NCBI RefSeq assembly: GCF_020177375.1
Contig: NZ_JAIWHV010000026.1
Span: 1-49,889 of the forward strand
Direction of reading: 5' to 3'
Source of the DNA: Saliphagus infecundisoli
GTDB taxonomy: Archaea > Halobacteriota > Halobacteria > Halobacteriales > Natrialbaceae
Length of the DNA stretch: 49,889 nucleotides
Shown here piece after piece: positions 38,286 through 47,928 of the stretch. The notes beneath the pieces were generated by a model. The model worked only from the letters and a program-made list of their open reading frames with translations, had not been told where the DNA came from and searched no databases. Positions within the stretch are counted from its first letter, which is position 1, and each line of letters starts with the position of its first letter. The position numbers and the translations under genes were made by a program.

Positions 38286-38798
38286 ATGACGACCAACGCA
38301 CTAGCGGACCTTGACGGTGACGCACCGACCGCCAAACGCGCCCAGTACGAAGCCTTCGAGCTCGATCTCGAAGCACCCAGCTTGCTCCGGGTGACGAACG
38401 GGAGCTACGGCGACGACGAAAAACACGAGCACACCTACCGCGTGAACATCGAGAACGGCGTTCCCACTACATGTGAGTGTCCCTCCAACACCTACCAGGA
38501 TGGCGCCTGCAAACACCACGTTGCCGTCGCGATCCGCAAGCCCGTTCTCGAGGCGGCGACCGTGGACGGCTCCCAGGATCGCGTCGCCACCGACGGTGGG
38601 GAGCTCGTCGTCGCCAGCGACGAAGGGGCAGTCCTCGAGATTAAAGGCGGAACGGGTGAGGGTTCGGCCGTGTCTTTACCTTGTGCAATATTCGGCCATC
38701 CACTCAGAAAGATGTTGCACAAGGCAAGCGAAGCCGACGCCAGCCGGCAGTCGCATCCAACCCCGTTCTCAGGAGCCGAAACCGGTCACAATCACTGA
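38286..38798 (+). CDS. SWIM zinc-finger protein, C-terminus replaced
   Basis: 170 residues from ATG 38286 (MTTNALADLDGDAPTAKRAQ). The SWIM motif is C-x-C-x(n)-C-x-H: TTCECPSNTYQDGACKHH. Up to about residue 125 (VVASDEGAVLEIKGGT) the protein looks normal. After that the frame enters a short inverted-repeat element (38679-38724) and continues with unlike sequence to the TGA at 38796. The natural C-terminus is therefore lost. SWIM domains bind nucleic acid or protein partners; whether this shortened form works is unknown. Confidence 0.65.
   Translation: MTTNALADLDGDAPTAKRAQYEAFELDLEAPSLLRVTNGSYGDDEKHEHTYRVNIENGVPTTCECPSNTYQDGACKHHVAVAIRKPVLEAATVDGSQDRVATDGGELVVASDEGAVLEIKGGTGEGSAVSLPCAIFGHPLRKMLHKASEADASRQSHPTPFSGAETGHNH
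38679..38724. repeat. Minimal remnant of the CCTTGTGCAA-ended element
   Basis: CCTTGTGCAA (38679-38688) and TTGCACAAGG (38715-38724) form perfect 10-bp inverted ends around 26 bp. The same ends bound the 158-bp element at 39718-39875. It sits where the SWIM gene loses its normal sequence, so it probably marks an internally deleted insertion. Confidence 0.55.
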
Positions 38799-38809
38799 GA
38801 GTCAATTGT

Positions 38810-39100
38810 GGACTCACTACGGTTATTTATCTTCTCAATGTGTGCTATCATGTTGCAGGGTTCGCGGTGATCATGGATTGGGGGTCTGCCCTGCATCGAT
38901 TCGGTCGGGGTGGGATCTCGTGCCGCCCGCCCGGCCACTCTGCGCGCTTCGTGCATCTCACCATACCCATTCCCGTATTGTCCCTCGGGCCCTGATACAC
39001 ACTTGCACGACCGTCGCCTCTCAGCCATACATCGGTCGTGCTGCCTGTCTGTGGCATATCGAGACGGGCGGACCCTGTACCCCGCCCGTTTCGCTCACGA
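38810..39100 (+). ncRNA. Putative structured RNA element, copy A
   Basis: 291-nt sequence similar throughout to copy B at 39964-40251, in the same orientation. It begins with CTCACTACGGTTATTTAT, a TATA-like box. Stem-loops: CAATGTG/CATGTTG (38836-38842/38849-38855), GCAGGG/CCCTGC (38855-38860/38889-38894), GGGTGG/CCGCCC (38908-38913/38923-38928), GCACGACCG/CGGTCGTGC (39005-39013/39033-39041) and GAGACGGGCGG/CCGCCCGTTTC (39061-39071/39082-39092). Each has a counterpart in copy B with compensating or wobble changes. No protein frame is clearly conserved. By TATA spacing a transcript would start near 38853, so the first stem may be promoter-proximal DNA rather than RNA. No known RNA family recognised. 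Confidence 0.55.
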
Positions 39101-39207
39101 CGGGTTTCAAGAGCACCGATGACCCTGCGATGCAATGTGGCGTGTGACGAACCTCATGACGAGGACGAAGTGGATCGTTGATCTTTGGGCGAGGATTTTA
39201 TTTCTAA

Positions 39208-39327
39208 GATGACTGGAACTTCGATGAAGGCTACATCCTGTTAGCTGCGGTACTCGCCGTCGTAATCCTTCTTACACTCCGGCTTCCCGAATCGACAACT
39301 GGAACGGCCACTGGAGGGCACAGATGA
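39208..39327 (+). pseudogene. C-terminal relic of a membrane protein
   Basis: 39 codons reading DDWNFDEGYILLAAVLAVVI then LLTLRLPEST, stop at 39325-39327. One membrane helix with a short polar tail; no start. It begins ~108 nt after the end of RNA copy A on the same strand, and ends where the PPOX relic on the opposite strand begins to look like a protein. Confidence 0.4.
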
Positions 39328-39328
39328 T

Positions 39329-39568
39329 TGAAAGCATCCGATAGGGATTATCTAGATCAGTCATACTGACCGCAATACGGGGTTCGTTTCGGGCGTTTTT
39401 CGTCTTTCGGCGCTTGCGCTCAGTATTGATCAACAACTGGTCCGCCTCCGCGTCGTAATCAATCCACACGGCTGTCGAGTGCAGTGCCTCGTCGGAGAGG
39501 ATGGTCGTCACGTGAGCAAACGTCTACTTCTCAAATAAATCCTGGAAGTCGTCCGGAATCGATGCCAT
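39329..39568 (-). pseudogene. Broken PPOX-class (F420/FMN) oxidoreductase gene
   Basis: Starts at ATG 39568 with MASIPDDFQDLFEK, then an in-frame TAG, then TFAHVTTILSDEALHSTAVW, IDYDAEADQLLINTERKRRK and EPRIAVSMTDLDNPYRML. This is the N-terminal half of a pyridoxamine-phosphate-oxidase-like, probably F420-dependent family protein (~130-150 residues normally). Homology stops after RMLSI, and the remaining codons to 39272 are unrelated. Nonsense mutation plus truncation. Confidence 0.75.
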
Positions 39569-39717
39569 ACCCCCATACACAAGACCTGCGCTGAGAAGTA
39601 TGCCCCGCGTTCGCAACCACCTCGGAGAGGTGATCGATCACGTCCAACAAGATCTACCTAATCTCCTCTAAATTCGGCGCTTTGCATCTCCGCCCGGTGC
39701 CTCGCAGACGTCCACGA

Positions 39718-39875
39718 ACCTTGTGCAACACTTTTTGGGGTTTTCAGCCACTAATGAGACACGCCGGACGGACCGATTGTCCACATTGAGGTTTCAACAT
39801 TTGTAGGGGTAGTGCAGATCACATTTTCAATGAAAACCTCAATTTTTTGAAAATCGACCGATTGTTGCACAAGGT
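39718..39875. mobile_element. 158-bp MITE-like element
   Basis: Perfect 13-bp terminal inverted repeats, ACCTTGTGCAACA (39718-39730) and TGTTGCACAAGGT (39863-39875), around an AT-richer, non-coding interior. The interior has a further inverted pair, TTGAGGTTTCAA and TGAAAACCTCAA. Too short for a transposase; probably moved in trans by an insertion sequence with the same ends, not seen in this window. No target duplication is obvious. Confidence 0.65.
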
Positions 39876-39963
39876 CAGAACGCCAGCGGCGGCTGCCTGC
39901 GGTCACGTCCGCATCTCATTAACAGGGACTTCAAAAGGTCCACAATCTCCGAAGGTCCGTCTC

Positions 39964-40251
39964 GGGCTCACTGCGGTTATTTATTGTCACCTCGTGTGTT
40001 CCCGAGGTGCAGGGTAACCATCTACCATGGGATTGGGGAACCGACCCTGCATGGACTCGACCCGGGCGGATCCTTCGTCCGCCCGGCCTGTCACTTCGCC
40101 GCGAGTGTCTCCGGCACCTATCTACTTATGCACTTCCGGGCCCTGATAGCCACTCGCACGGCCGTCGCTGATCAGCCATACACTGGTCGTGCTGCCTGTC
40201 AGAGGCACCTCGAGACGGGCGGATCCTGCACCCCGTCCGTTTCTCTCACAA
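39964..40251 (+). ncRNA. Putative structured RNA element, copy B
   Basis: 288-nt partner of copy A. TATA-like TTATTTAT at 39977-39984. Stems: CACCTCG/CGAGGTG (39988-39994/40003-40009), GCAGGGT/ACCCTGC (40009-40015/40044-40050), CCGGGCGGA/TCCGCCCGG (40062-40070/40078-40086), GCACGGCCG/TGGTCGTGC (40156-40164/40184-40192) and GAGACGGGCGG/CCGTCCGTTTC (40212-40222/40233-40243). The first stem has almost no sequence in common with copy A yet pairs fully. It ends 115 nt before the MATE transporter ATG on the same strand, so it could be either an independent RNA or a cis-acting leader. Confidence 0.55.
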
Positions 40252-46542: not shown

Positions 46543-47802
46543 ATGCGGATCCACCGAACATTCGAGGCGTCGATCGCTAACCCACAGCAGGTAAGTGACG
46601 ACCTCGGTCAACTTGGATGGGCTGCATCGAAACTCTGGAACGTCGGTCGCTACTACGCACACGAACAGTGGGACGAGACGGGCGAGATCCCCGATGACGG
46701 GGAACTCAAATCCGAGCTCAAAGGCCACGAACGCTATACGGATCTTCACTCTCAATCCAGTCAGCGCGTTCTCGAAGAACTCGCTGAAGCGTTCAACGGT
46801 TGGTTCGGAAAGCGTCGGAACGGCGAGAGCCGTGCCCGACCGCCCGGGTACCGCAAACGCGGCGATTCGCACCCACGTTCTACCGTGTCGTTCAAAGCGG
46901 CTGGCTTCAAGCATGATGCACAGTTCACCCGCGTTCGCCTCTCGAAAGGACGAAACCTGAAGGACCATCGCTCGGACTTCGTGCTGTGCGAGTACGGGCT
47001 ACGTCCCGACGTAGACCTCTCCGAGTGGGACATTCAACAGGTCCGGGCCGTCCACAAGTACGATGAGTGGCGGCTTCACTTCGTCTGCCGGAAGTCGATT
47101 GATCCCGAACCACCCGGTGAGGAGACTGCCGGGATTGACCTCGATATCTCGAACGTCGCCGCGCTTTCGTTCGGCGGTGAGTCGATCCTCTTCCCCGGCA
47201 ACGCACTGAAAGAGGACGAATACTACTTCGGACGAAAGAAGGCAAAATGTGCCGATAGCCGATCGAACGAGCGGCTTCGGCTGGATCGGAAGCGTACCGA
47301 ACGTCGAACGCACTTCCTCCATACGCTCTCAAAACACATCGTTGCGGAGTGCGTCGAGAGAGGTGTCGGAACGATCGTCATAGGAGACCTCGGTGGTATC
47401 CGAGACGACGAGAACGGGGACTCCCGCAATTGGGGCAAACACGGCAACCTCGATCTTCACGGGTGGGCGTTCGACCGCTTCACGTCGATACTCGACTACA
47501 AGGCGGAAGTCGAGGGGATCGACGTGACGGTGGAGTCCGAACGCGATACCTCAAAGACGTGTTCCGCCTGTGGGACGAAAAACGGCGACCAGCGCGTCGA
47601 GCGCGGGTTGTATGTCTGTGGGGAGTGCGATACGGTGGCGAACGCGGACGTGAACGGTGCGGAGAACATTCGGCGAAAAGTAACTCCAAGTCCTTCACAG
47701 GATAGGAGTAACGGCTGGTTGGCACAGCCTTCAGTCCATCTGTTCGATTGGAGCGAGGGCCGTTTCGCCCCGCGAGAACAGGTCGTGGACTGTAAACCGT
47801 AA
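46543..47802 (+). CDS. tnpB: TnpB RNA-guided nuclease (IS1341-type)
   Basis: 419 residues. RuvC-I Asp199 (AGIDLDISN), zinc ribbon Cys340, Cys343, Cys359, Cys362 (TCSACG...VCGECD) and RuvC-III Asp369 (NADVNGAENI). RuvC-II reads IVIGDLGGIR, so the canonical Glu is Gly281; Asp318 in SILDYKAEVEG is a nearby acid. N-terminal wedge region as in other haloarchaeal TnpB. C-terminal tail is long and unlike the first TnpB. Guide RNA would derive from the 3' end through the hairpin at 47825-47844. Confidence 0.92.
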   Translation: MRIHRTFEASIANPQQVSDDLGQLGWAASKLWNVGRYYAHEQWDETGEIPDDGELKSELKGHERYTDLHSQSSQRVLEELAEAFNGWFGKRRNGESRARPPGYRKRGDSHPRSTVSFKAAGFKHDAQFTRVRLSKGRNLKDHRSDFVLCEYGLRPDVDLSEWDIQQVRAVHKYDEWRLHFVCRKSIDPEPPGEETAGIDLDISNVAALSFGGESILFPGNALKEDEYYFGRKKAKCADSRSNERLRLDRKRTERRTHFLHTLSKHIVAECVERGVGTIVIGDLGGIRDDENGDSRNWGKHGNLDLHGWAFDRFTSILDYKAEVEGIDVTVESERDTSKTCSACGTKNGDQRVERGLYVCGECDTVANADVNGAENIRRKVTPSPSQDRSNGWLAQPSVHLFDWSEGRFAPREQVVDCKP

Positions 47803-47824
47803 TATCCCAACGGCGGTCGGGATT

Positions 47825-47844
47825 CCACGTCGTTTACGGCGTGG
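47825..47844. repeat. Right-end hairpin of IS1341-type element
   Basis: CCACGTCG-TTTA-CGGCGTGG (one G-T pair) followed by GAGGATGTCAA. Probable end of the guide-RNA scaffold and transposase recognition site. Confidence 0.7.
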
Positions 47845-47928
47845 AGGATGTCAATGAGTAAGCTACTCCACCCTTCCGTGCTCGGGCCGACAGGATCCCT
47901 CAAGACGAAATCATACCTCTTCCCTCGC

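Follow-up and report, generated by a model that had tools for sequence, protein, structure and literature searches.

A previously undescribed multicopy family of structured RNA units of about 90 nucleotides in Saliphagus infecundisoli, read as putative small RNA genes

The stretch of DNA analysed here (the window, 49,889 nucleotides) is contig C18 of the 4.53 Mb genome of Saliphagus infecundisoli, which is assembled in 76 contigs. It contains two diverged copies, A and B, of a sequence of about 290 nucleotides, and these raise the question of what is being repeated. An earlier note had taken them to be two copies of a single structured RNA with five stems, a candidate for a new RNA of haloarchaea. 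The repeat was borne out by alignment, as A and B are 71–73% identical over about 290 nucleotides, on the same strand and end to end (E ~1e-33). Of the overall reading, a structured non-coding RNA outside Rfam stood, whereas one RNA of 290 nucleotides and a haloarchaea-wide spread did not.

A protein-coding function was considered and rejected. Differences between A and B are spread evenly over the codon phases (24–34%) and the indels measure 2, 4 and 1 nucleotides, and both patterns argue against translation, in agreement with the lack of protein-type conservation noted before. Stops and unit lengths also differ across frames and copies. The units are intergenic and non-coding, as independently transcribed small RNAs (sRNAs) of haloarchaea are. 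A scan of Rfam 15 at gathering and relaxed thresholds gave nothing at the locus (best chance match 11.5 bits against a threshold of 48), so that the statement that no known RNA family is present also holds.

Searches of the same genome revealed a larger family. BLASTn identified a third full copy (C29a), a lone 5′ half (C25) and fragments of the 3′ half, and C29c and C26b came from a pattern search. R1, a covariance model built on the 3′ half (7 sequences, 79 positions), recovered the known units together with two that had not been used in training, C19 (39.8 bits) and C24 (35.2 bits). A second subtype adjoins known units at C19, C27 and C26, and C27 also has a third (20.7 bits), which was recognised by eye in C26 as well. 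Trained on type 2 only, model R3 led to a new locus, C10 (66 bits), and cross-detected untrained type-1 units at about 25–37 bits; models from one subtype (R1, R3) hence detect other subtypes and new loci. The model of the 5′ half (R2) matched its four training members only. In total, at least 21 units are present at about 10 loci on nine contigs of this genome, some of them in arrays of two or three.

Starts of tandem units lie about 150–195 bp apart (about 150 bp in the pairs of A and B). The order is types 3-2-1 in C27, types 2-1 in C19, and a hybrid unit followed by types 3 and 2 in C26. Copies A and B are tandem pairs as well, with 5′ units starting at 38854 and 40008 and 3′ units at 39005 and 40156. 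Since 3′-type units are found solo or paired with type-2 or type-3 units in other arrays, and a 5′-type unit stands solo at C25, each copy of 290 nucleotides is to be regarded as two units. One multi-domain RNA per copy, of which the solitary 3′ units would be fragments, is thus improbable. Both halves are indeed kept in the same order and spacing in A, B and C29a, and the best promoter-like sequence, TTATTTAT, precedes the 5′ half. However, every unit has its own box and its own P6 or P2 hairpin, and the 5′ and 3′ units are similar in plan.

Units of types 1–3 follow one plan, with a YTATW-like box about 30 nucleotides upstream, a hairpin P4, a small P5, a P6 and a T-rich tail. P4 has 9–12 bp and reads GCACG...CGTGC in nearly all of them, P5 is not clearly a hairpin in types 2 and 3, and the GC-rich P6 has 6–11 bp, with a short, TTTC-like tail behind it in most units. 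In the type-5 (5′) units there are two hairpins, P1 and P2. Loop sequences are kept inside subtypes and differ between them (AAGGCACA or AGCCATAC in type 1, CCGTTCCC in type 2 and CATGGGATTGGGGAACCG in type 5), whereas stems are held by pairing only.

All units of the window lie on the forward strand. In copy A, position analysis places the TATA-like TTATTTAT (38823–38830) at −31 of the type-5 unit with its hairpins P1 and P2 (38854–38934; 66.7 bits with R2 as a training member), which folds weakly (z −0.01) and is possibly decayed. A GTATTG box (38975–38980) lies at −30 of the type-1 unit, a predicted RNA of about 90 nucleotides (39005–39096) composed of P4 (39005–39013/39033–39041), P5 (39042–39056), P6 (39061–39071/39082–39092) and a TTTC tail. 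It scores 65 bits with R1, where it was a training member, and 31 bits with R3, where it was not. In copy B, TTATTTAT (39977–39984) again lies at −31 of the type-5 unit (40008–40086; 97.2 bits with R2 as a training member, z −1.88), so that the common TATA-like box reported previously is present in both copies. This unit consists of P1 (40008–40015/40044–40051), the conserved loop and P2 (40062–40070/40078–40086). A TTATGC box (40126–40131) lies at −30 of the type-1 unit (40156–40247), likewise a predicted RNA of about 90 nucleotides, with P4 (40156–40164/40184–40192), P5 (40193–40207), P6 (40212–40222/40233–40243) and a TTTC tail; it reaches 63.4 bits with R1 (training member) and 24.8 bits with R3 (outside training).

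Four of the five stems proposed earlier are supported by the further copies: P1 (TGCAGGG), P2 (GGGTGG/CCGCCC against GGGCGG/CCGCCC), P4 (GCACGACCG/CGGTCGTGC against GCACGGCCG/TGGTCGTGC) and P6 (GAGACGGGCGG with either CCGCCCGTTTC or CCGTCCGTTTC). The first stem pairs in A (CAATGTG/CATGTTG) and B (CACCTCG/CGAGGTG) and fails in the third homologue, C25, where the corresponding positions read CCCTCCG/CCAAGTG and only 4 of 7 pair. The fourth homologue, C29a, was also checked for it, and homology starts there only at GTGCAGGGT. In B, this stem (39988–39994/40003–40009) straddles the predicted start site: its 5′ arm falls after the TATA box and before P1 begins. The first stem is therefore unsupported.

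Covariation in the stems, as claimed from two copies, proved significant when compared with shuffles, with slid partners and with a null that allows for the tree. In 16 aligned units, 90% of cells are paired compared with 81% after shuffling and 35–46% with slid partners, and 13 of the 23 pairs are changed on both sides. The covariation score is 0.327 against 0.171 in shuffled alignments, and none of 500 shuffles reaches any observed measure. As the units are related, substitutions were also placed randomly along the inferred tree. Against this null the covariation score (0.313, mean 0.153) was reached in 0 of 1000 trials and the number of cells changed on both sides (27 compared with 11.9) in 4 of 1000, whereas the number of pairs changed on both sides (11 compared with 7; 54 of 1000) is not extreme alone. 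These figures come from an alignment fitted to the model, and, with every unit taken from a single genome, the units are phylogenetically independent to a limited degree only. Covariation beyond shuffling and phylogeny, as is characteristic of a conserved structured RNA, was found. Folding of single units points in the same direction: 12 of 18 units tested have z between −2.3 and −4.65 compared with shuffles, and pairing beyond chance in the two copies is seen in the 3′ units of A and B (z −4.65 and −3.14 against dinucleotide shuffles). Some units look decayed or fold poorly, namely the A 5′ unit, C19 type 1 (z −0.51), C26 type 3 (z 0.06) and C24, in which P6 is broken. The units are a previously undescribed family of structured RNAs of about 90 nucleotides, new to Rfam.

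The next question is whether the units are genes of their own. A YTATW-like box is conserved 31–26 nucleotides upstream of the first hairpin, and the spacer is largely unconserved. Its summed information is 4.18 bits, and the largest value in 2000 shuffles was 1.79. The spacing is that of an archaeal TATA box. In haloarchaea the consensus is TTWT for TATA, at about 27–30 nucleotides before the start, and CGAAA for BRE (PMC4983044). The TTATTTAT of the A and B 5′ units contains the TTWT motif, the boxes of types 1–3 (CTATTG, CTATAAT, CTATTT) are only a loose fit, and a CGAAA BRE was not seen at the boxes of the units. We regard the units, with a probability of roughly 60%, as a lineage-restricted family of multicopy sRNA genes that would be independently transcribed and would probably act in trans. 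In C29a, the onset of homology (C29, about 1740–1750) nearly coincides with the predicted start of the RNA, and the promoter region before it is unrelated, which could reflect a replacement of the promoter or, possibly, an RNA-mediated insertion.

The main rival is an element that acts in DNA, such as a non-autonomous mobile or REP/MITE-like repeat, in which the hairpins would serve recombination, transposition or protein binding and transcription would be incidental. It is considered unlikely. Dispersed intergenic copies limited to loci of 53–63% GC, the abrupt start of homology in C29a and the absence of the family from relatives speak for it, as do palindromes of the form CCTTGTGCAAC-N-GTTGCACAAGG beside A, B, C25 and C29b. 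However, no terminal inverted repeats or target duplications were found at the unit ends when units and flanks were read, which argues against a MITE or an IS-derived element, and some loci were duplicated along with a neighbouring gene. On the given strand, there are 33 G.U wobble pairs compared with 14 A.C mismatches, and this excess favours an RNA of that strand over a hairpin in DNA only. The units share with REP and MITE repeats that they are dispersed, palindromic, intergenic and present in many copies per genome, and differ from them in their length of about 90 nucleotides, in having three hairpins in a set order, in a box at a constant distance upstream and in wobble pairs specific to one strand. 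Thus, wobble pairs and box weaken the DNA-level reading, while palindromes and dispersed copies keep it alive.

The palindrome is a repeat separate from the RNA unit. In the window, a 46-bp copy, CCTTGTGCAAT-N24-GTTGCACAAGG (38679–38724, no strand assigned), precedes the A 5′ unit by about 130 bp, and the same arms with an interior of 134 bp (39719–39874, no strand assigned) stand at a like distance of about 130 bp before the B 5′ unit. With spacers of 23–26 nucleotides, CCTTGTGCAAC-N(23-26)-GTTGCACAAGG occurs in 28 exact-arm copies in this genome, compared with none for a control with the reversed pattern; the total length is near-constant and the interior mostly variable. It may be a REP-like repeat, a miniature transposon or a protein site. 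G137, a genome from a different family within the order, has 26 copies, and the others of the 61 genomes searched have none. Most palindromes stand without RNA units, which argues against the DNA-level reading. One palindrome precedes the type-5 start by about 130 bp in each of A, B and C25, and another follows the C29b unit at a short distance. This proximity exceeds the expectation from their frequency, but the arrangement in A, B and C25 is a single one that was duplicated.

The Rfam model sot0042 (sense overlapping transcript) matched elsewhere in the window, at 47678–47845, with 111 bits. This likely omegaRNA covers the 3′ end of an ORF (46543–47802) that looks like a TnpB-type transposase. 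The omegaRNA/sotRNA of IS200/IS605 elements (RF02656 sot0042) resemble the present family as haloarchaeal structured RNAs linked to mobile parts. In contrast to these, no unit overlaps tnpB or matches the Rfam model, and the units have a terminator-like 3′ hairpin, so that an identity with omegaRNA/sotRNA was rejected.

Beyond this genome, no member was accepted, and the expectation of an RNA shared across haloarchaea was not confirmed. Accepted matches came from this genome only when 125 genomes of the family were searched with BLASTn and R1 and 392 genomes of the order with R1. The large searches used strict filters, with few candidates scored per genome and one genome per species, and covered genomes other than metagenomes. 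A pattern that describes most type-1 units had no archaeal match among 84,980 species; its eight bacterial matches (best R1 score 18 bits) were taken as chance, and a viral one (R1 only 12 bits) was not credible. Two further patterns had no match in viral sequences. BLASTn of plasmids and phages gave only a 36-nucleotide match in Streptomyces (E 0.01), also attributed to chance, and nothing credible came from plasmids, phages or viral contigs overall. In G137, which shares the palindrome, one R1 match of 24.7–26.6 bits lies inside a glycoside-hydrolase-like gene and was regarded as chance, which means that isolated matches near 25 bits are not trustworthy; matches of 16–24 bits in this genome (C66, C12, C14, C60 and C28:14675) were not accepted. 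In relatives, homologues of the C26/C10 HTH gene had no RNA beside them in a search guided by synteny. Among the genomes searched, the family is confined to one sequenced species.

The genomic setting points to accessory DNA, as loci with units have 53–63% GC and several larger contigs sampled have 62–70%. C29 encodes a ParA-like gene, and at least this contig may be a plasmid. No common theme was seen among neighbouring genes at the loci examined (A/B, C27, C10, C26, C24, C29a and C29c), which encode a SWIM protein and a MATE transporter at A/B, a GYD protein and a DedA-like protein at C27, HTH regulators at C10, C26, C24 and C29c, and a ferritin-like protein at C29a. The same small winged-HTH gene is convergent with a type-2 unit at C10 (4801–5183) and C26 (9854–10387), and C24 and C29c adjoin similar genes of the bacterio-opsin-activator type, so that segmental duplication accounts for part of the spread. 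The type-2 unit and the winged-HTH gene might be a functional pair. A role as cis-acting elements in the 3′ or 5′ UTRs of neighbours (terminators, processing sites or riboswitch-like leaders) would account for the position of B about 120–200 nucleotides upstream of the MATE transporter gene and for two units downstream of similar HTH_10-type regulators. This is very improbable, as the downstream genes are of no common class, several units (C10, C26) converge with their neighbours, and a leader or tail would not usually come in arrays of two to three units.

Multicopy sRNA families are known from bacteria, such as Qrr in Vibrio and LhrC in Listeria. Similar to these, the present family comprises several paralogous short RNAs with a 5′ hairpin, a terminator-like 3′ hairpin, own (here predicted) promoters and loops kept inside subtypes; it differs in being archaeal, without sequence relation, more numerous, more diverged and arranged in tandem arrays. 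Haloarchaea commonly have short RNAs that are intergenic and carry their own promoters, as in the Haloferax volcanii catalogue (PMC4983044) and the example of sRNA132 (PMC6560208). The units resemble them in being intergenic and short with promoters predicted, and are distinct as a paralogous, covarying family of one sequenced species.

For the family of trans-acting sRNA genes, the following course is proposed. Each unit of types 1–3 would be a transcription unit of its own, in which the TATA-like box about 30 nucleotides upstream would start transcription at the first base of P4. The predicted product of about 90 nucleotides would carry P4 with its subtype-specific loop at the 5′ end, the small P5 and the GC-rich P6, and P6 with the short T-rich tail would probably end or stabilise the transcript. 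Tandem and segmental duplication has multiplied the units into arrays. The most likely role would be regulation in trans by multicopy sRNAs, with putative targets and perhaps a protein partner; the constancy of loops inside subtypes and their difference between subtypes is as expected if loops read different targets. A wider and tentative view, held with considerable doubt, is that of a new archaeal class of expanding, tandemly arrayed regulatory sRNAs on low-GC accessory DNA of one haloarchaeal lineage, in which loops would diversify on a kept scaffold, as a regulatory network or as the RNA-level partner of a mobile or conflict system.

To our knowledge, few families of structured small RNAs have been described in archaea, and fewer with many paralogues per genome. 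With its 21 or more diverged units, this one genome provides an internal alignment, from which structure, boxes and loops can be read without other species. That the family is confined to one sequenced species illustrates how young or how mobile families of this kind can be, and, if expressed, the family would be a test case for how archaeal sRNA families arise, multiply and change targets.
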